From IMG/VR virus record IMGVR_UViG_3300042402_003745, positions 1-36,981 of that record: DNA of 36,981 nt. One strand, 5' to 3'. The stretch's first letter is position 1, and every line of letters begins with the position of its first letter. The stretch comes from a virus. A program made the translations under genes and the position numbers. Shown in pieces: positions 5,017-20,829 of the stretch. The notes beneath the pieces were generated by a model, which had not been told where the DNA came from, ran no database searches, and saw only the letters and a list, made by a program, of their open reading frames with translations.

Positions 5017-5268
5017 TTACTCTTCTGTTTTATCCGTATTCTTTGAATTGATCCACTTATCAACAGAAGCAATACCAAAAGCACCCAATGTAATTATCAT
5101 GAAACCGTCAAAGATGAATTTGTTTATGAGCAATTCTTTTCCTAACCAACCTGTTACTAGATCTACTACAAGAGCTATTACCATACAAACGAATGCTATG
5201 AAACCAATAAAAGACTTTTCATTGATTGTATTGTTATCGTCAAATAGTTTACTAAAAAATTTTTTCAT
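5017..5268 (-). CDS. holin-like two-helix membrane protein
   Basis: This 83-residue protein has a short basic N-terminus (MKKFFSKLF), two hydrophobic helices at about residues 21-40 and 52-69, and a polar, charged C-terminal tail. That layout is common in class II or III phage holins, which permeabilise the inner membrane at the end of infection. It is the last gene before a terminator in a cluster that also encodes spanin-like proteins, which supports a lysis role. No named family is recognised with certainty, and another small membrane protein (880-1041) competes for the holin role. Confidence 0.55.
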   Translation of the reverse strand: MKKFFSKLFDDNNTINEKSFIGFIAFVCMVIALVVDLVTGWLGKELLINKFIFDGFMIITLGAFGIASVDKWINSKNTDKTEE

Positions 5269-5302: not shown

Positions 5303-6418
5303 TTATTTCTTTTCTTTTCCGCCCTCTTGTGTAGCATACTTTATACCCATAATTGTTCCAACTATTGAGAATGCATTTGTTAATAATACACTAAACATAT
5401 TACTCCAAGTCGAGCCAATAATCTGTGTGTCTTTACCGGTAAGCATAGCCATCCAATATAATACAGTTGTTACAACACCTACCCCGACAATAACGGCTAA
5501 TGCAACTTTTACGATTGTTTTTATTAACTCAGATTGACTTTTCTTCATCACTACGTCTAAATCATTCAACGCAGCGTTCTTCTCTATTTCAATCGCATCT
5601 TTAAGTTTTTTAGAGTTATCTAACTCAATCTGTAAATCTTTTGAAAGAGTGTCTATCTTGTTTTTACTGTTGACAGCTTCAGTAACATCAGTAGCAATTT
5701 TGATTACATTTGTAACGTTTCCTTTGCTGTCAAAGACAGGATTATAGGTGGCTTGTAAATAAATAATAGACCCATCTACTTTTTTTCTTTCAAATATCCC
5801 GTCAAAAAACTTACCGCTTTTTAAGGATTTCCAAAATTTACTATACTCATCTGATTTTGAATACTCATAACTAACAAAAATACTGTGGTGCTTTCCTATT
5901 ACTTGGTTTTTTTCATTAGCCTTATAACCCATTGTTTCTAAGAACACAGAATTCGCATCTACGATAAAACCGTTAATATCAAAAGTAATAGTTGCAGTAC
6001 TTTTATTAATTGCGTCTATCTGTTTTTTACTATTAACAATCGTAGTAATGTCAGTAGCAACTTTCATTACTTTAGTAATAGTACCACTTTCATCGTAAAT
6101 AGGATTGTATGTTGCTTGTAAGTTGATAAGACTACCGTCTCTTTTTCTTCTTTCAAATTCTCCTTGATAGTATTTACCACTTCTTAATATATCCCAGAAC
6201 TTTTCATATTCCAATGACCTTGCATAATCTTCACACACAAAAATACTATGGTGTTTACCAATGACTTGTTCATGCTCATCTACACCGTATCCCATTGCTT
6301 GTAGAAAAATTGCATTAACACCTAAAATTTTTCCATTTAGATCAAAATAGATAATAGCATTACTACGATTAATCGCTTCTAGTCTACTAAGTAATTCCTC
6401 TTTTGATAAGTTTTTCAT
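5303..6418 (-). CDS. tandem PAS sensor protein with two-helix membrane C-terminus
   Basis: The 371-residue protein has two PAS domains (about 13-130 and 134-250) that are internal repeats of each other. Both contain MGY, VIGKHHSIFV (52-61 and 173-182), EYxKFW, a DGSxI strand, LQATYNP and ATDxT, as in the PAS units of chemoreceptor and BdlA-like proteins. A coiled coil (about 250-300) leads to two transmembrane helices (about 302-325 and 340-358) and a short charged tail (QEGGKEKK). There is no kinase, MCP or output domain. Such PAS domains bind small cofactors or ligands and report redox or oxygen state. In a phage lysis or envelope cluster, a sensor joined to a holin-like membrane unit is the obvious hypothesis. 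Confidence 0.82.
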   Translation of the reverse strand: MKNLSKEELLSRLEAINRSNAIIYFDLNGKILGVNAIFLQAMGYGVDEHEQVIGKHHSIFVCEDYARSLEYEKFWDILRSGKYYQGEFERRKRDGSLINLQATYNPIYDESGTITKVMKVATDITTIVNSKKQIDAINKSTATITFDINGFIVDANSVFLETMGYKANEKNQVIGKHHSIFVSYEYSKSDEYSKFWKSLKSGKFFDGIFERKKVDGSIIYLQATYNPVFDSKGNVTNVIKIATDVTEAVNSKNKIDTLSKDLQIELDNSKKLKDAIEIEKNAALNDLDVVMKKSQSELIKTIVKVALAVIVGVGVVTTVLYWMAMLTGKDTQIIGSTWSNMFSVLLTNAFSIVGTIMGIKYATQEGGKEKK

Positions 6419-6692: not shown

Positions 6693-7061
6693 TTAATTTT
6701 GTAGTGAATCTATAATTACTGTACTATCTGATACTACAGTAGTTTTAGTTCTTTCCTTTCCCCAAAAGTTTTTCTTAGTCTCAATATAAACTGTATCAAT
6801 TCTAACTTTCTCTATCTTTTGTACAGACTTCAAACTTTTTAATTCAGCCTTAGCATTATCAAGTTGACCTAAAACTTCTACTATTTCTTTTTTTACTATT
6901 GAATCTACTTTATGATTTGCAGACTCAGATTTGTATATAATCTCTTTACTATGATTGATCAAACTATCGAACTCCAATGTTTCTTTTTCTGAGTATATAG
7001 GTTCTACTTTATTTACACATCCTACGATGCATATAGCTAATAAGATTAAAGTGGCTCTCAT
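6693..7061 (-). CDS. lipoprotein, o-spanin-like
   Basis: Started at the ATG at 7061 the 122-residue product begins MRATLILLAICIVGC, a lipoprotein signal peptide with Cys at residue 15. The frame is also open upstream to a TTG at 7118, but that would bury the signal. The mature part is a long helical, coiled-coil-prone segment (residues 30-85) and a beta-like tail. The ATG lies one base after the stop of the i-spanin-like gene. A membrane-anchored coiled-coil protein followed at once by a lipoprotein is the classic two-component spanin order, which fuses inner and outer membranes in the last step of lysis. Confidence 0.65.
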   Translation of the reverse strand: MRATLILLAICIVGCVNKVEPIYSEKETLEFDSLINHSKEIIYKSESANHKVDSIVKKEIVEVLGQLDNAKAELKSLKSVQKIEKVRIDTVYIETKKNFWGKERTKTTVVSDSTVIIDSLQN

Positions 7062-7062
7062 G

Positions 7063-7329
7063 TTAGTTAATTTTACCAAGATCTTGCAATACTGATATTT
7101 TTGATACAGCTGCTGCAAGAGCGCTGTCAGACCTTCTTAGCTGAGTCGTAAGAATGTCTACCTTAGTTTCCAGCACTTCAATCTTCTTTCCTTGATTCTC
7201 AATCTGATTTGTGTAGTTTACTTTACCATCTATATATAGATAGCCTACAGCGATTATAACAATAAATAAAAGACCCTTAACTGGATCCTTACTAAATTCC
7301 TTAAAAGAAATTGGGGGTTTCATGTTCAT
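7063..7329 (-). CDS. i-spanin-like membrane-anchored coiled coil protein
   Basis: The 88-residue product has one transmembrane helix at about residues 17-31 (VKGLLFIVIIAVGYLYI) and then a heptad-rich periplasmic helix (ENQGKKIEVLETKVDILTTQL). A second in-frame ATG lies two codons in (7323). It is followed after one base by a lipoprotein gene, as in Rz/Rz1-type spanins, although here the two genes are adjacent rather than nested. It is the first gene after the groEL terminator, and a CTATTTATT motif lies about 60 bp upstream, a reasonable promoter place. Confidence 0.65.
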   Translation of the reverse strand: MNMKPPISFKEFSKDPVKGLLFIVIIAVGYLYIDGKVNYTNQIENQGKKIEVLETKVDILTTQLRRSDSALAAAVSKISVLQDLGKIN

Positions 7330-7452: not shown

Positions 7453-9117
7453 TTATCCAAACATACTCATATCCTGTTCATCTTTTTTCTTACTGTCTTT
7501 CTTTTCAAAAATAACTGATTCAGTTGTTAGGATAGTTCCTGCTACCGATGCTGCATTCTCTAGTGCGGTACGTGTTACTTTAGTAGGATCTAGTAGTCCT
7601 GACTCCATAGCTGTTACTACATTTTGAGTCTTAGCATTATAGGTATAGAGTTCATCTTCACCACCACTTCCAACTAACTCTGTTCGTGCATCGTGTACTG
7701 ACCTTAAAATTGAATAGTAATCTTCTACACCACAGTTGTTAAGGATAGTCTTAAATGGTTGGTAACATGCTTTACGTACAATGTCAAAACCTAACATCTC
7801 ATCTGCTGATACTTCTTTTGGTTTAATTGAAAGACCGTTGAATGCTTCGATCAAAGCAATACCACCACCAGGTACCACACCTTCAACCAATGCTGCCTTT
7901 GTAGCAAACAAAGCATCTTCAACTCTATCCTTCTTTTCTCTAATCTCAATATCTGAGTTACCTCCTACTGAGATAATAGCTACACCACCGATCAACTTAC
8001 CCAATCTCTCTTGTAGCTTTTCCTTTTCGTAGAACGAAGTAGCTTTATCAATTTGATCTTTAATCTCTTGTGCTCTTAAAGCTATTGCTCCTGCTTCACC
8101 ATGACCATCAATCACAGTTGTAGATTCCTTTGATACTGTTACTGTTCTTGCTACACCTAGGAATTCGTTAATTTGGACAGGACTGAGCTTATCTATCTTG
8201 TGACCCTTGTTTTTACTAATTACAGTACCACCTGTTAGGATTGCTAAGTCTTCTAAGATCAAAGTTCTTCTTTCACCAAAGTCAGGAGCTTTAACAGCAA
8301 CCACCTTAACAATACCTCTCATCTTATTTACAATGAGAGTAGCAAGTGCCTCATCTTCAATATCCTCAGCTACAATAAGTACTGATTTGTTTTCTCCACT
8401 AACCTTACTAAGTACGTTTAGAAGTTCTGCTGCTTTAGTAATCCTTCCATCGTAGATGAAGATATAAGGTTCCTCAAGTACAGCATTCATTGTTGTGTTG
8501 TTAGTAACAAAGTAAGGTGACTTGTATCCACGATCAAACTGCATACCTTCTACTACTTCTAAACTTGTCTCTCCGGTTTTCGATTCTTCTATCGTAACAA
8601 TACCTTCACGACCTACCTTCTCAATGGCAGTAGAGATAAGCTCTCCAACACTTGAGTCATTGTTAGCAGAAATGGTTGCTACTTGTTTAATCTGATCTTG
8701 AGAAGCAATATCTTTTGATAACTCTCTTAACTGATCTACTACTTCAGATACGTACTTATCAATACCTTTCTTAACTTCTACTGGATTAGAACCTTGATTA
8801 ATTAGTTTCAATCCTTCTTCAACCATTGTTGTTGCAAGTAAAGTAGATGTAGTAGTACCGTCACCTGCTTCGTTAGCAGATTTAATCGATACTTGTTTTA
8901 CAAGTTGTGCACCTAAGTCTTCAACTTGATCTTCTAATTCATGAAATGATCTAGCTACTGTAACACCATCTTTAGTTACTTTAACTTCGCCTGATTGTTC
9001 TTTAATAAGAACTGTTCTACCACCTGGACCTAGTGTAGAAGAAACTGATTGATTTAGTTTCTTAATACCTGCTAGTAACTTGTTCTTTAACTCTGTTCCG
9101 AAAACTGTTGTTGTCAT
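7453..9117 (-). CDS. groEL: chaperonin GroEL (Hsp60)
   Basis: The 554-residue protein is full length for a group I chaperonin. It has [14 protein letters not shown] in the N-terminal region, the ATP-binding [14 protein letters not shown] near residues 86-99, the apical domain through about 190-370, and [12 protein letters not shown] near 412. The C-terminus is [11 protein letters not shown] rather than the usual GGM repeats. It folds newly made proteins in an ATP-driven cage with GroES; phages that carry it probably fold their own capsid or tail proteins. It is one base downstream of groES, so translation is coupled. Confidence 0.96.
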
Positions 9118-9118
9118 A

Positions 9119-9409
9119 TTAGTCTAGTTTTGAATAAATGTCTTGTTCTTTTGTTATGTAATACTCTTCACTTTCAACTGTGATTCTCACTGATCCTAGT
9201 TTTGGAATAAGAACCTTGTCTCCAATTTGTAGTTGAGACTTTACAAACTTATCTGAGTTGTAGTTGTAGGTTTCTGATACCGCAACTACTTCACCCATTT
9301 CAGGTCTTTCTTTTCCTAAGTCAGGAATTACAATATTACCGTACATTGTCTCTTCTTCTTCGATTGGCCTAATAACGATGTAGCCATTTAGTGGTTTGAG
9401 TTTATTCAT
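9119..9409 (-). CDS. groES: co-chaperonin GroES (Hsp10)
   Basis: The 96-residue protein has the normal length and fold: a PLNGYIVIRPIEEEE first strand, a mobile-loop region (MYGNIVIPDLGKERP), then VVAVSETY and GDKVLIPKLGSVRITVESEEYYITKEQDI, the barrel end with the usual tyrosine-rich strand. It caps the GroEL cage. The mobile loop MYGNIVIP carries a hydrophobic triplet needed for GroEL docking. It is encoded directly before groEL, the standard order, which suggests the two evolved as a matched phage pair. Confidence 0.95.
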   Translation of the reverse strand: MNKLKPLNGYIVIRPIEEEETMYGNIVIPDLGKERPEMGEVVAVSETYNYNSDKFVKSQLQIGDKVLIPKLGSVRITVESEEYYITKEQDIYSKLD

Positions 9410-9411
9410 AT

Positions 9412-9606
9412 TTAATTTGATTTAGTTTCTTCTAAAATTTCTAGCTCTGGTACGAGTTCTACAAAGTAGAATAGACCATCTTTCTTCAGAACTATATCTG
9501 CTCTAAGATGTTCTTTCCAAACATCTACGTTCGGTTCTAGTTCTTCCTTTATTACTCTTTTAAGAATGTAAAGGTTATTATTGAATGTAAGGAATTGTTT
9601 GTTCAT
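9412..9606 (-). CDS. hypothetical small protein in chaperone operon
   Basis: This 64-residue protein looks mostly beta (NNLYILKRVIKEE, ADIVLKKDGLFYFVELVPELEI), with an acidic C-terminus. It is not recognised. Only two bases separate it from groES and it follows hsp20, so it is co-expressed with the chaperones. It may be an accessory factor, but nothing in the sequence shows this. Confidence 0.5.
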   Translation of the reverse strand: MNKQFLTFNNNLYILKRVIKEELEPNVDVWKEHLRADIVLKKDGLFYFVELVPELEILEETKSN

Positions 9607-9611
9607 AACCT

Positions 9612-9625
9612 AGGTATCGACAGGC
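9612..9625 (+). repeat. inverted repeat copy 1 flanking hsp20
   Basis: AGGTATCGACAGGC here matches the reverse complement of 10127-10141 (AGGTACTCGACAGGC) with one inserted base. The two copies bracket the hsp20 gene closely. In the minus-strand mRNA they could pair as a long-range stem joining the 5' leader and 3' end. Confidence 0.6.
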
Positions 9626-9631
9626 TTTTTT

Positions 9632-10063
9632 TTATTTTTTTAGTTGCTTGAGAGTTGGTTTAATCTCAATCCTACGTATGGCCTTCCCTTCAGCAACAGG
9701 TATTGTTAGTATTAACAATCCTTTCTCAAGTGATGCCTCTAGTTTAGTTAGATCAAATTTAGATGAGATTTTCCAACTAAGATCAAAGCTTGACCTTTTA
9801 ATACCTCTATAGATGTGAGTTCTCTCTTCTTTCTTACCTTCATAGCGGATGCGGAGCATATCGCCTTCAACCAGAATTTCTATATCTTCTTGGTTAAGAC
9901 CAACAGCAGCAACCTCTAGTGTAATGCCTGTCTCGTTTTCAAAAATGTCTACTGGGTGTGTTACTTTCTGCGTGATTGCAGAGAAATGTGAATTTGTTTC
10001 AAATAGATCCTTCCAAAGAAGGTCAAATGGGTCCAAGTCGAATGGACGTAGAAATTGTGTCAT
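9632..10063 (-). CDS. small heat shock protein Hsp20
   Basis: The 143-residue protein has the alpha-crystallin domain at about residues 33-133. Visible marks are HPVDIFENETGITLEVAAVGL, then a VEGDMLRIRYEG strand, a loop with SFDLSW, and the closing motif LEKGLLILTIPVAE near 112-125. The short C-terminal extension ends IEIKPTLKQLKK, with an IxI-type anchor (IEI). Hsp20 proteins are ATP-independent holdases. It is the first gene of the hsp20, small gene, groES, groEL cluster and is flanked by an inverted repeat. Confidence 0.93.
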   Translation of the reverse strand: MTQFLRPFDLDPFDLLWKDLFETNSHFSAITQKVTHPVDIFENETGITLEVAAVGLNQEDIEILVEGDMLRIRYEGKKEERTHIYRGIKRSSFDLSWKISSKFDLTKLEASLEKGLLILTIPVAEGKAIRRIEIKPTLKQLKK

Positions 10064-10164: not shown

Positions 10165-11247
10165 TTAAAAATTCTGTTGTATTACTTTAGCTAATTCAGG
10201 TGAATTTACTATATTTTGGTGATCAGCATCATCAATAAAAATTGTATTGCTATTTTTATTAGTTGAAGCTGCTTTATTAGATAACTCTGTTTTATTTTTT
10301 TCATCCTGCGATCTTGGTTTCCCAGACTTATCTAGTCCTGCCATAATTGAAATTATTTCAACTCCACTTAAAGGAGGTAATGTTGGATTTCTTGGGTCTC
10401 CTGTTTCTCGTCCTAACCCTTTTTTCTTTAGTGTGTCTGTTTCTTGAACTTTTTGTATTATTATAGGATCACCTTCTTCAAATGTTTTACCTGCAACATC
10501 AGCTCCTATCTTAACCATGTTGCTAAATCTTTTTTTAAAATTTGTAGTATCAAACTTATCTTCAATTATCCATGGGTTTGTTTGACCTATCTTTTTAGCA
10601 TCAGCATCTAAACCAGAATCAGTAGGGGGAGGAAATTCACTACCAGTATATTCTAAGTAGTTACCTTCATTCTCTTCTTTAAAAGCATTCAATTTACTTG
10701 TATTAAAAAATCTCCTACCCTTTTCTTCTGCTTCACTATCTGATACAGGTGAACCTTTCCTCACTCTTTTAAAAACATCTAATGGCCAAGCAATTGCTAT
10801 TCTAGGTGGATTTTCTTTATCTAATCCTTTAGCAAACTCTTGTGTAGAATTTGGTATACCACTATCTATAAAAAATAATTTATTTTCAAATTCTTTTCTT
10901 AATTTATTCTCCGATTCTAATTTTTGTAATTGTCTACACAAATGCCATGCCATTGCGCCACCAATAGAGTATCCTCCAACTGCAAAGTCGTTAATGTTAG
11001 GATCATTATTTATTTCATTAGCAATTTGTTCTGTATATTTTCTTACGTCTACTTTATTAGGAAAATTCACAGTATAGATAGAGAAACTATTACTTAAATT
11101 TTTTATAAGACTTTTAAAATCATCTGCTGCGTTGCCCCCTGATCCTGGTATTAGAATTAGTGTTTTACCTCCGTCTGAGTGTTTAGTCAGTAAGCGTTCT
11201 GTGTTTTTTTCTGTGATCTCTTTTAATATGTCTAACAGTTTAATCAT
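10165..11247 (-). CDS. alpha/beta hydrolase with capsid-targeting-like N-terminus
   Basis: The 360-residue protein has an alpha/beta-hydrolase core: oxyanion-loop-like LIPGSGGN (32-39), nucleophile elbow GYSIGG with Ser94, and a late DADHQNI that supplies the likely catalytic His near 345. Esterase or thioesterase activity is likely; the substrate is unknown. The middle (about 170-330) is Lys-, Pro- and Asn-rich and not recognised. Its first 11 residues, MIKLLDILKEI, nearly match those of the gene upstream (11276-11947), and resemble the short N-terminal helix used by T4 to pack internal proteins into the head. Confidence 0.72.
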   Translation of the reverse strand: MIKLLDILKEITEKNTERLLTKHSDGGKTLILIPGSGGNAADDFKSLIKNLSNSFSIYTVNFPNKVDVRKYTEQIANEINNDPNINDFAVGGYSIGGAMAWHLCRQLQKLESENKLRKEFENKLFFIDSGIPNSTQEFAKGLDKENPPRIAIAWPLDVFKRVRKGSPVSDSEAEEKGRRFFNTSKLNAFKEENEGNYLEYTGSEFPPPTDSGLDADAKKIGQTNPWIIEDKFDTTNFKKRFSNMVKIGADVAGKTFEEGDPIIIQKVQETDTLKKKGLGRETGDPRNPTLPPLSGVEIISIMAGLDKSGKPRSQDEKNKTELSNKAASTNKNSNTIFIDDADHQNIVNSPELAKVIQQNF

Positions 11248-11275: not shown

Positions 11276-11947
11276 TTATACATTAAACCATTTTCTTTCT
11301 GTGGTATATTCAAAACTTTTTTCTTCATTTTCATCTTTTGATACATAATATTTACCACCAATTAATTTATAATCTCCTAATTCACTTTTTAGATAATCTG
11401 CCATTTCTTGATCATCTTTAAATATTTTAGGTTCTCCAATTCGTTTTCCACGTTTATCTAAATATAAAACAGAAGATTTCTTCCAATACATTATTTTTTT
11501 AAAATATTTAATAGCTTCAGGATTTAATAAATTTAATTCTTCTCCGTCACTTAGAGCATCTATTCCTTCTTGTTTGAATTTTTCAAAAGTTTGCTTACTT
11601 ACATTATGTAATTCAGAATATTGCTTTATATTTGATTCCGGTTTTAATTTCATTTCATACATAAAACCTTGTGTGTAAGGAGCAGCGTCAAGATCAAATC
11701 CTGTATATGACATTGGGCATGTAGCACAACGGCTTGTTTTATCTTTACCAAAGTAAATACCTACTCCTCCTTTACTAGAACCTGTAGCCGACCATTTCCA
11801 TTTATCTTCATACCCTTTTTTGTAAACATCTGAATCTCTATGTAGGGGATCTAGGTCATTTTGATCGATATCTGCAGTAGAACCATGATACCAAACTACA
11901 TTATGTTCGTCTATAATTTCCTTAATTAAGTTTAATAATTTAATCAT
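11276..11947 (-). CDS. ADP-ribosyltransferase-like protein
   Basis: After an N-terminal helix MIKLLNLIKEI, this 223-residue protein reads VVWYHGSTADID (18-27), then GVGIYFGKDK (61-70), and MYEMKL (96-101). The H-G-S plus G-I-Y-F-G pair is the pattern of PARP- or toxin-type ADP-ribosyltransferases (His and Tyr that hold NAD). A final Glu cannot be fixed by eye. T4 injects ADP-ribosyltransferases (Alt) that modify host RNA polymerase; this protein may act similarly if packaged. It is adjacent to the alpha/beta hydrolase with the same N-terminal helix. Confidence 0.6.
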   Translation of the reverse strand: MIKLLNLIKEIIDEHNVVWYHGSTADIDQNDLDPLHRDSDVYKKGYEDKWKWSATGSSKGGVGIYFGKDKTSRCATCPMSYTGFDLDAAPYTQGFMYEMKLKPESNIKQYSELHNVSKQTFEKFKQEGIDALSDGEELNLLNPEAIKYFKKIMYWKKSSVLYLDKRGKRIGEPKIFKDDQEMADYLKSELGDYKLIGGKYYVSKDENEEKSFEYTTERKWFNV

Positions 11948-16709: not shown

Positions 16710-17515
16710 TTTAATATTTGGTTTTCCATGTAGTTGATATTAAATAGAATATCTTTTACAGAATCCAAATCACGTTCAACTTCAAACCTTACTTCTAATT
16801 TAGTCTTACCATCCTTTAGACCCCATGCTGATTCATCAAATCTCACACCCAAATGACCATGCCAAAAAGGTGATGAACTATCATTGCTATCCATAAGTCC
16901 TAACTGTCTTTGTAATGTGATCTCTCTTGGTCCGTCTCCAAGACCTAAGTAGTGATGCCATTTATAGTCTCTAGAAATAAGATTATCAAGAAGGTACTGT
17001 GTAGCAAATACTCTATTGATAGCTATATTGCTTGTGTTAGTGAGACTACAAAATGCATTTGGTATTCCTAAAATAGACATTCCTATTACTTCAATATCTG
17101 GATGATTGAGCATATGTCTATATCCTTCGATCCATCCTTTGTAATCACCTTTCTTACTTTGAGGTACAGCCATCACCTTATACTTTGTACCCTTAACTTC
17201 ATCTATGAACTTAAGAGTTGATTTCCAAGTCACTTCCCAATCTTCAAAAGGATAGTCAGGTGCTACAATATAGGTAGGTTCAATACCGCTACGTTCAATA
17301 AATCCAAAGATCTCTTCAGAGCTTAATGCTCTCTTAAATTCAAATGCACTATTATCTAAGATTACTGTATCACCTCTTTTGATCTTTTCTTTGTAGAAAT
17401 CTACATACTCTTTGCTGTCCAAGAGGTGAGCTAAGATCAAATGAAAGTCAGCACTCTCTGGTATGAGATCTTGATAAGCTATTGGTGCTATGTAACCGTA
17501 CTTTATCTTTTTCAT
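16706..17515 (-). CDS. dpdA: DpdA-like DNA guanine transglycosylase
   Basis: The 269-residue protein resembles the TGT/DpdA barrel: VILDNSAFEFK (51-61), VAPDYPFEDWE (84-94), VMAVPQSKKGDYKGW (114-128) and VIGMSILG. In TGT enzymes the Asp residues of the first two motifs are catalytic and the PQ/VQG segment binds the base. Phage DpdA swaps guanine in DNA for a 7-deazaguanine made by FolE-QueD-QueE. The genes for those three enzymes lie directly upstream, and DpdA overlaps folE by 4 bp, which supports the call. Confidence 0.82.
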   Translation of the reverse strand: MKKIKYGYIAPIAYQDLIPESADFHLILAHLLDSKEYVDFYKEKIKRGDTVILDNSAFEFKRALSSEEIFGFIERSGIEPTYIVAPDYPFEDWEVTWKSTLKFIDEVKGTKYKVMAVPQSKKGDYKGWIEGYRHMLNHPDIEVIGMSILGIPNAFCSLTNTSNIAINRVFATQYLLDNLISRDYKWHHYLGLGDGPREITLQRQLGLMDSNDSSSPFWHGHLGVRFDESAWGLKDGKTKLEVRFEVERDLDSVKDILFNINYMENQILK

Positions 17516-18156
17516 GAATGTCTGCTTTGATCGATTAGATTAAAGAATTCTGCACGAGTACCTACTTCATTAGTCCAGAAGTATCCTGACATTTGAGATG
17601 TCTTCATCACACTGTCTTGTTTAATACCTCTACACTTAACACAGTTATGTTGGCTTTCAATAACTACAGCAACACCTCTATTACCTACACACAATCTATC
17701 AATGTGATCATGTATCTGCTTAGTTAAAGACTCTTGGATATTTGGTCTGCGACTATAAAAGTCAACAATACGATTGAGTTTACTTAGTCCAATAACCATG
17801 TCTGTCTTCTCTTTACCAGCAATATAAGCTACGTGAGCTACACCAGTAAAAGATAAGTTATGATGTGCACATAAGCTAACAACTGGAATACGAGTTTGAC
17901 AGATCAATCCTGTATACCCTTCATCATTAGGAAATGCTCTGATCTCTGGTTCAGGATTGATAGAACCTGCGATTAAATCATTTACCCAAGCTTTCGCAAC
18001 ACGTCTTGGAGTGTTTGCAGAATGTTCATCTGCTGCCCAATCAAATCCCATTGCTGTTAAAAACTTACCATAATATTCTGCAGCTTCCTCAATCATCTTA
18101 GCTTTCTCTTCCTGTGTGCGTACAATGTTGCCGTTCGCTTTTTTAATGAGCTCCAT
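17512..18156 (-). CDS. folE: GTP cyclohydrolase I
   Basis: The 214-residue protein has the GTP cyclohydrolase I signature: TPRRVAKAWV (49-58), the zinc and catalytic motif CAHHN (96-100), and ESQHNCVKCRG (167-177) with the second Cys ligand, plus SKLNRIVDFYSRRPNIQE (125-142). It opens GTP to dihydroneopterin triphosphate, the first step of both folate and 7-deazaguanine synthesis. Linked queD, queE and dpdA genes make the second route the likely purpose. Confidence 0.96.
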   Translation of the reverse strand: MELIKKANGNIVRTQEEKAKMIEEAAEYYGKFLTAMGFDWAADEHSANTPRRVAKAWVNDLIAGSINPEPEIRAFPNDEGYTGLICQTRIPVVSLCAHHNLSFTGVAHVAYIAGKEKTDMVIGLSKLNRIVDFYSRRPNIQESLTKQIHDHIDRLCVGNRGVAVVIESQHNCVKCRGIKQDSVMKTSQMSGYFWTNEVGTRAEFFNLIDQSRHS

Positions 18157-19708: not shown

Positions 19709-19939
19709 TTAAATTTTATATTCTTTATCAAAGGTTACAATTACTTCTCCTGGATTGTGAGCTGGGATGTAGTATTCAAACTTGTGTTTTATCAAAATAT
19801 TTTCAGTAAGATTTCTCATTCTATTCGAACTACCAATTATAATACGAACAGGTAATTCTTTAGCATTTAGCAATACGAAGTTTTCAACTTCATCTCTAAC
19901 TTGATGATGATATAAACCGTGCAAGTCTAACTCTTTCAT
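19709..19939 (-). CDS. Smr-domain protein
   Basis: The 76-residue protein starts KELDLHGLYHHQVRDEV, matching the DLHG motif that opens Smr (small MutS-related) domains. A basic strand and loop (PVRIIIGSSNRM) follows in place of the usual TGxGxH/R motif, and the end reads PGEVIVTF. Smr domains nick or cleave nucleic acids, mainly RNA in recent work on related proteins. The second motif (GSSNRM) is altered, so nuclease activity is uncertain. It overlaps queE by one base. Confidence 0.68.
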   Translation of the reverse strand: MKELDLHGLYHHQVRDEVENFVLLNAKELPVRIIIGSSNRMRNLTENILIKHKFEYYIPAHNPGEVIVTFDKEYKI

Positions 19940-20829
19940 TACACATTTAGTGTTTTATTCCAAGCTGCGATATGTAAACGAGTCAATCCTCTAAACTTAT
20001 ACTTCTTAGCCATTTCAAGAACAAATTGAGTACGTTCTTCAAAGTTAGCTACATCATCTAGTCCTGGCATACAAACCACGTTGTAAAGAGGTATATTAAG
20101 TGGTACGATGAAATCTCTAAAAATTTCTTGTACATCTTCTTCATTAGATATAACAAATTTAAATTGATAGTTTCTATGTTCCATAATACGTTTAAGAGCA
20201 GCTTCGTTAAAGCGTTGACTCTTACTCATACCTGAGTTTGATAACTTAGGTGAGCAGTTGATTTGGTCAATAAATGTAAACAATGGTTCATCAATGTAAA
20301 CTGTTCCGTTTGTTTCTATTTCATTAAAAGCTGTTACTTTTCTAACCTTATGTGTTGTACCAGACTCTAAATCAAATCCCGTAAATATATTTTTTACACT
20401 AGGATCTTGGTCAATCCAATATTCAAAGAAGTTACAAATTGCTTGCTGGTGTCCTTTAATTGTTGGTTCACCACCAGTCCAAATGATATGAATATAGTCA
20501 TTTTTAATATCATCATAGATACCTTGTTCTTTCCACCTATCGATTAGATATTGGAATTCTTTATCTTCACCTCTCCACAACCATTGGCTTGTAGAATCAC
20601 AAGTCCAAGTTGCTTTACCTTCTTTAACTAAATCACCTTCAAATATTTCTCCGTCCTCTAGTGATTGTTCTTTAGCTAAGTTATTTGCAAACTGACGAGA
20701 CATACCGCAAGTCAAATTACAGATACCTAAACGAACAAAGTAGGAAGGCACTCCAGATGAAATGCCCTCACCTTGGACAGAGTAGAAGTCTGAACTAATC
20801 AATAATTTATTTGGATCTATTTTACTCAT
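19939..20829 (-). CDS. queE: 7-carboxy-7-deazaguanine synthase QueE
   Basis: The 296-residue radical SAM protein reads SVQGEGISSGVPSYFVRLGICNLTC (17-41), then a Cys at 77 (TWTCDS), then IIWTGGEPT (115-123). QueE binds a 4Fe-4S cluster by three Cys and turns carboxytetrahydropterin into 7-carboxy-7-deazaguanine. Here the cysteines fit C37-x3-C41 and C77, with a 35-residue insertion in place of the usual short spacer, so the fold around the cluster is enlarged. The C-terminal part (LHIAAWNKTLNV) is normal. It is the key step that commits to 7-deazaguanine. Confidence 0.92.
   Translation of the reverse strand: MSKIDPNKLLISSDFYSVQGEGISSGVPSYFVRLGICNLTCGMSRQFANNLAKEQSLEDGEIFEGDLVKEGKATWTCDSTSQWLWRGEDKEFQYLIDRWKEQGIYDDIKNDYIHIIWTGGEPTIKGHQQAICNFFEYWIDQDPSVKNIFTGFDLESGTTHKVRKVTAFNEIETNGTVYIDEPLFTFIDQINCSPKLSNSGMSKSQRFNEAALKRIMEHRNYQFKFVISNEEDVQEIFRDFIVPLNIPLYNVVCMPGLDDVANFEERTQFVLEMAKKYKFRGLTRLHIAAWNKTLNV

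Follow-up and report, generated by a model that had tools for sequence, protein, structure and literature searches.

Most of what is known about how a phage sets the moment of lysis comes from two cases, clock-like holins and superinfection sensing of the T4 type. A gene on a 36,981-nucleotide stretch of viral DNA (IMG/VR record IMGVR_UViG_3300042402_003745; hereafter the window) raises the question of whether a phage could also time lysis by the state of its host, through a sensor built into a membrane protein of the lysis cassette. The initial annotation of the window had proposed just this: a tandem PAS sensor joined to a holin-like membrane unit inside a lysis/envelope cluster, sensing redox, oxygen or a ligand and acting on the membrane.

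The protein itself stands as first described. The open reading frame (ORF), Pfam and AlphaFold2 agree on two PAS domains, a coiled coil and two transmembrane (TM) helices, and we add the strand, which had been left unstated: the gene is encoded on the minus strand, as are nearly all genes of the phage fragment (table 1). Both motifs noted at the outset, VIGKHHSIFV and LQATYNP, are present in each PAS copy, and the copies are identical to each other at 65 of 114 positions (57%). Pfam matches PAS_3 (PF08447) twice (E 1.1e-26; 93.4 bits against a curated cut-off of 25.6) and, beyond it, returns only overlapping PAS models and no other family. In an AlphaFold2 model built with 48 relatives (mean pLDDT 80.8), the PAS pair is followed by a single helix, residues 246-327, that becomes the first membrane helix (TM1), and by a further helix, residues 332-364, that forms the second (TM2). 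Foldseek neighbours of the PAS pair are the sensors MmoS, DosP, NifL and FixL. The lack of a conventional output is also borne out: neither Pfam nor the model gives a kinase, cyclase, DNA-binding or chemoreceptor domain in the 371-aa protein. A chance ORF or a misread frame is ruled out because more than 100 distinct viral loci encode the protein at full length.

Table 1. Features of the PAS gene and of its gene unit (nucleotide positions in the window; residues are those of the 371-aa protein).
Feature	Position	Strand	Basis
PAS-PAS-coiled coil-2TM protein, P0001	5303..6418	minus	371-aa ORF, Pfam, relatives, AlphaFold2
PAS domain 1, residues 6-123	6050..6403	minus	Pfam, AlphaFold2, Foldseek
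PAS domain 2, residues 125-244	5687..6046	minus	Pfam, AlphaFold2
Signalling helix/coiled coil, residues 246-303, unbroken into TM1	5510..5683	minus	AlphaFold2
TM1, residues 304-327, variable across relatives	5438..5509	minus	sequence comparison
TM2 and its approach, residues 331-363, TQIIGSTWSNMFSVLLTNAFSIVGTIMGIKYAT, polar S/N/T/G face	5330..5428	minus	invariant in 58 distinct copies
i-spanin-like protein, N-terminal TM and coiled coil	7063..7329	minus	architecture; family beside PAS in about 10 loci
o-spanin-like lipoprotein, lipobox IVGC	6693..7058	minus	sequence architecture; no family match
89-aa single-TM protein, stop codon abutting the PAS start codon	6419..6688	minus	sequence
83-aa 2TM holin-like protein, homologue of Flavobacterium phage immuto gp79	5017..5268	minus	family adjoins PAS or directly precedes GH19 lysins
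Terminator-like hairpin closing the unit	4994-4970	minus	hairpin scan
Terminator-like hairpin between the unit and upstream GroEL	7434-7412	minus	hairpin scan

In PAS domains of the NifL, MmoS and Aer kind, the Trp and Asn of the W-x-G...N-R signature contact FAD. In our alignment, the Trp and Asn columns common to NifL, MmoS and an aerotaxis receptor are occupied by Tyr/Phe and Glu in each PAS domain of the phage protein. FAD may still be the ligand despite these missing residues, because sequence analysis predicts FAD for the PAS domains of BdlA (PMC8694187). The best tblastn match outside the family in phage records is a BdlA-type PAS-PAS chemoreceptor (43% identity over residues 13-255), and the match covers the PAS part only. 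Chemoreceptors of the BdlA/McpS type (Pseudomonas BdlA; a 675-aa protein on MT836939) share tandem PAS domains with GxHHxxFV and QA(S/T)YNPI/V. They differ in what follows: they have a methyl-accepting signalling domain, absent from the 371-aa protein in both Pfam and the AlphaFold2 model, whereas the phage protein has a coiled coil running into a unit of two TM helices (2TM). MT836939.1 (L082), although labelled as phage, looks bacterial and also carries GGDEF/EAL-like genes; we rejected it as a phage relative, as a mislabelled contig with a PAS-PAS-MCP protein. Two further records with PAS matches, OR848218/OR848229 (‘Listeria phage LM 4-14-1’), may also be contamination.

The C-terminal unit is carried by at least 554 stretches in IMG/VR, and 133 distinct near-complete proteins were obtained from the fetched loci. 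Two architectures occur, PAS-PAS-helix-2TM (about 370 aa) and PAS-helix-2TM (about 250 aa), which have the same helix and 2TM unit. The fusion is found in none of 50,697 named phage records, where the C-terminus is also without a match, and no PHROGs family carries it; INPHARED matches were rejected as named phage relatives since they cover the PAS part only. A cellular origin was set aside as well: the genome_contigs scan (84,980 genomes with an exact-peptide prefilter, hence of limited reach) gave only PAS relatives, and a search of 395 genomes of one phylum, likewise limited in reach, gave no convincing match. Recent spread is insufficient to explain the similarity between copies, which differ by 0.34-0.58 at 4-fold sites. 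The PAS proteins are about as conserved as the lysins.

In the window, five same-direction minus-strand genes, from 7329 to 5017, form an envelope unit framed by terminator-like hairpins (a hairpin scan over 4.5 kb found 6, against 1.3 expected). The setting given initially, with the PAS gene between a spanin-like pair and a holin-like gene and a terminator at the end, is confirmed, except that an 89-aa gene also intervenes. The spanin-like pair matches no spanin family in Pfam or PHROGs and takes its name purely from its architecture. Neither an endolysin nor a 4TM holin was identified within the 37-kb fragment. The fragment is likely incomplete because its relative, Flavobacterium phage vB_FspM_immuto (Immutovirus), has 160 kb. 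This phage is the nearest isolate and the one cultured relative (DNA polymerase 56%, GroEL 54%, gp79 46%) and has a matching genome region: a few genes past GroEL it encodes the 83-aa 2TM homologue gp79, a chitinase-type endolysin and an annotated holin. It differs from the window in having the chitinase and the holin and in lacking a PAS protein. Because the matching site holds these three genes, the window region corresponds, by comparison of gene content, to a lysis locus.

The association with lysis genes extends across the family. An endolysin lies within three genes of PAS in 79 of the 90 loci that have at least three genes on each side. Among the 74 loci with at least four on each side, the lysin is found at +1 (46%), +2 (32%), +3 (14%) or -1 (8%) and hardly ever at a distance of four genes or more; where it is adjacent, the median gap to the PAS gene is 11 bp. 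Four lysin types occur beside PAS (GH19, GH24, M15 and PG_binding, from Pfam and PHROGs), and a 4TM gene often seen nearby belongs to Phage_holin_4_1. A tree built from 92 PAS sequences shows at least 24 switches of lysin type among the 77 that could be labelled, so that PAS and lysin were not inherited together as a single block. PAS is the sole same-strand membrane gene within three genes of the lysin in seven loci. Comparison gives strong support to the proposed place in a lysis cluster. Copies in phages without lysis genes nearby, which had been named as evidence that would count against it, amount to at most three to four of the 74 loci; L029, L044 and L152 are without a recognised lysis gene within four genes.

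Some further neighbours were recorded. Candidate unimolecular spanins (158-163 aa, with a lipobox at the start and a TM helix at the end) recur beside PAS, for example as gene +2 in L225 and gene -2 in L023; PHROGs gave no match for the one candidate examined. What looked in some loci like antisense genes next to PAS proved to be reverse readings of the 2TM gene. In two cultured Cellulophaga phages, phi19:1 gp108 (L273:4202-4924) and phi18:3 gp090 (L274:39102-39620) have one N-terminal TM helix and lie a few genes from an endolysin. Their lengths match two BFVD entries with a weak PAS-like fold (Foldseek, 11-15% identity), and the order of parts is reversed relative to the PAS-2TM protein.

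Which membrane gene of the cassette does the PAS protein resemble in its role? A reciprocal set of loci, fetched by the GH19 lysin alone with no reference to PAS, gave 44 usable distinct loci. The 39 without PAS mostly have the order small 2TM gene (s2TM)-GH19-4TM holin (hol4), with s2TM and hol4 each in 38 of 39. In the five with PAS, s2TM is found once and hol4 every time (Fisher p 0.0002 for s2TM, a value that is indicative because some loci are related to one another). Among the 16 loci selected by PAS in which GH19 is the next gene downstream, s2TM occurs in 5 (11 clusters at 90% identity). By these gene counts, what PAS tends to replace in GH19 cassettes is the small 2TM gene; replacement of the 4TM holin is not seen. 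M15 cassettes fetched by their lysin in the same way show no replacement of s2TM by PAS.

TM2 is under tight constraint. Residues 331-363 are without a single amino-acid change across 58 distinct copies that were retrieved with patterns outside TM2, while TM1 and the coiled coil vary among copies. Synonymous codon diversity over these 33 residues is 0.394, equal to that of the rest of the gene, and conservation as a DNA element was rejected for this reason. The exact motif is also present in 133 of 133 later-collected copies, a count with some circularity in it, since TM2 patterns had served to collect these copies. TM2 is amphipathic (helical moment 0.297 against 0.125 for shuffles, p 0.009), with S336, N340, S343, T347, S351, G354 and G358 on one polar side. 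Since the amino acids are frozen at normal synonymous diversity, TM2 is, judged from its codons, more than an inert anchor; this and the polar face tell against the anchor-only C-terminus that the initial annotation had named among the things that would count against it. Lys/Arg counts (three before TM1, one in the loop, four in the tail) fit a predicted N-in/C-in topology. The C-terminus of the 371-aa protein has no match to holin families in Pfam or PHROGs, and homology to the s2TM family found no support in a profile comparison. A dual-start holin/antiholin arrangement with a short 2TM product was rejected because an internal start before TM1 is not conserved (only 71 of 133 copies have an ATG at 286-296). 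In PHROGs, there is a weak match (E 0.003) between the 2TM part of the PAS proteins and the C-terminal third of phrog_1544 (200 positions, unknown function). Its matches are mostly the 2TM part of the PAS genes themselves, and it may be another phage membrane family.

Among known systems, Class II holins (phi21 S2168) and mycobacteriophage LysF1a are close in form, with two TM helices, N-in/C-in topology, a short loop and a place in a lysis cassette (PMC9636201, PMC13056207). The PAS-2TM family has the two TM helices with a short loop, may have the same topology, and sits in a cassette beside an endolysin at the frequency given above, with no lysin found in the window. No sequence relation to these holins was found, the PAS-2TM protein has a cytoplasmic sensor of about 300 residues at its N-terminus, and a holin role for it is putative. 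LysF1a, a 2TM protein with N-in/C-in topology, regulates lysis together with LysF1b (PMC13056207). In T4, holin T is regulated by the antiholin RI, and the trigger time of a lysis membrane protein follows a sensed condition (PMC11413866); there, superinfection is sensed in the periplasm by a separate antiholin, whereas the PAS-2TM sensor would be cytoplasmic and in the same chain. A phage-encoded PAS sensor that commits a phage to host lysis is also on record, namely VqmA of vibriophage VP882 (PMC8284805). VqmA senses DPO and acts through transcription, as a DNA-binding factor; the PAS-2TM protein has no DNA-binding domain and is placed in the membrane. A literature search, covering few subscription papers, turned up no case in which a membrane protein of lysis is fused to a PAS domain, and the lysis-cassette protein appears to be previously undescribed.

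On balance, we lean towards reading the PAS-2TM protein as a sensor-controlled 2TM component of the lysis machinery, either the holin itself or a 2TM partner of the holin. Two cytoplasmic BdlA-type PAS domains would read an internal host signal (redox, oxygen or a small ligand), and the continuous signalling helix would pass their change into TM1. The polar S/N/T/G face of TM2 would suit helix packing or pore lining as the protein assembles in the inner membrane. There it could be the holin, as would suit those PAS-lysin loci that have no further membrane gene, or a 2TM partner beside a Phage_holin_4 holin, and the state of the PAS domains would advance or delay the moment of endolysin release or activation. 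The analysis shows the architecture, the link to lysis cassettes, the constraint on TM2 and the exchange with a 2TM gene in GH19 cassettes; membrane action, gating by PAS and N-in/C-in topology are what we infer for this protein. PAS need not be the pore former, because many of these cassettes also contain a canonical holin (Phage_holin_4) or the small 2TM protein. The bolder form, a ligand-gated holin whose lysis pore is opened directly by a cytoplasmic PAS sensor of host redox, oxygen or a metabolite in hundreds of environmental viruses, is a tentative proposal that we think less likely than not. More broadly, the pattern suggests that viruses with the PAS-2TM protein may time bursting by sensing host state.

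The same co-occurrence with Phage_holin_4 or s2TM in many cassettes could mean an antiholin-like restraint, in which the TM helices pair with a separate holin (s2TM or Phage_holin_4) and let go when the PAS signal changes, making no lesion of their own. Two holin-like proteins per cassette are a known plan, as in LysF1a/LysF1b (PMC13056207) and T4 T/RI (PMC11413866). We regard this restraint as unlikely, given the seven loci with no other membrane gene beside the lysin and the replacement of s2TM in GH19 cassettes, which fits a holin-like role over a purely added inhibitor.

Replacement of s2TM also bears on whether the protein might be a late accessory passenger, serving superinfection exclusion or forming mixed dimers with host PAS chemoreceptors, with the 2TM part a special anchor. 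Accessory genes often insert in lysis regions, the PAS pair most closely resembles PAS-PAS chemoreceptors of the BdlA type, and a few copies do sit away from lysis genes. A passenger would be expected at many late sites, yet most copies keep within three genes of a lysin, across four lysin types, and neither the exchange with s2TM nor a frozen TM2 is expected of a passenger with an anchor; we hold this quite unlikely. Finally, single-gene lysis proteins bind cell-wall synthesis enzymes, and the invariant TM2 might in a similar way bind one conserved host membrane protein, with PAS controlling that inhibition. Thirty-three unchanged residues at normal synonymous diversity would be stricter than pore-forming helices usually need. 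An endolysin next door in most loci makes an inhibitor of wall synthesis unneeded, however, and the polar face of TM2 follows the helical period, as self-packing would give. This is the least probable of the readings, and we give it very little weight beside a sensor-controlled lysis component.

If a widespread protein of lysis cassettes has its own cytoplasmic sensor, the idea that host physiology sets the time of lysis would become open to direct test, and the viruses that carry the protein are common in environmental samples. The frozen TM2 offers a defined target for mutagenesis. If the protein is ligand-gated, it would be a natural switchable lysis device; a ligand-gated holin would, if true, set timing by a sensor domain inside the pore protein, without transcription or superinfection.

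Other genes of the window were noted in passing. Directly upstream of the lysis unit, phage GroEL, GroES and Hsp20-like small heat-shock genes lie in a row (7453-10063), and GroEL and GroES are syntenic with Flavobacterium phage immuto. Two otherwise unrelated proteins (10165-11247 and 11276-11947), one of them thioesterase/alpha-beta hydrolase-like, have the same N-terminus, MIKLL(D/N)(I/L)(L/I)KEI, and similar N-termini recur on other proteins in the related loci L251, L265, L066 and L003. By analogy with T4 internal proteins, this common N-terminus could be a capsid-targeting sequence. Genes for GTP cyclohydrolase and a QueE-like radical SAM protein (17512-18156 and 19939-20829) suggest 7-deazaguanine modification of the phage DNA.
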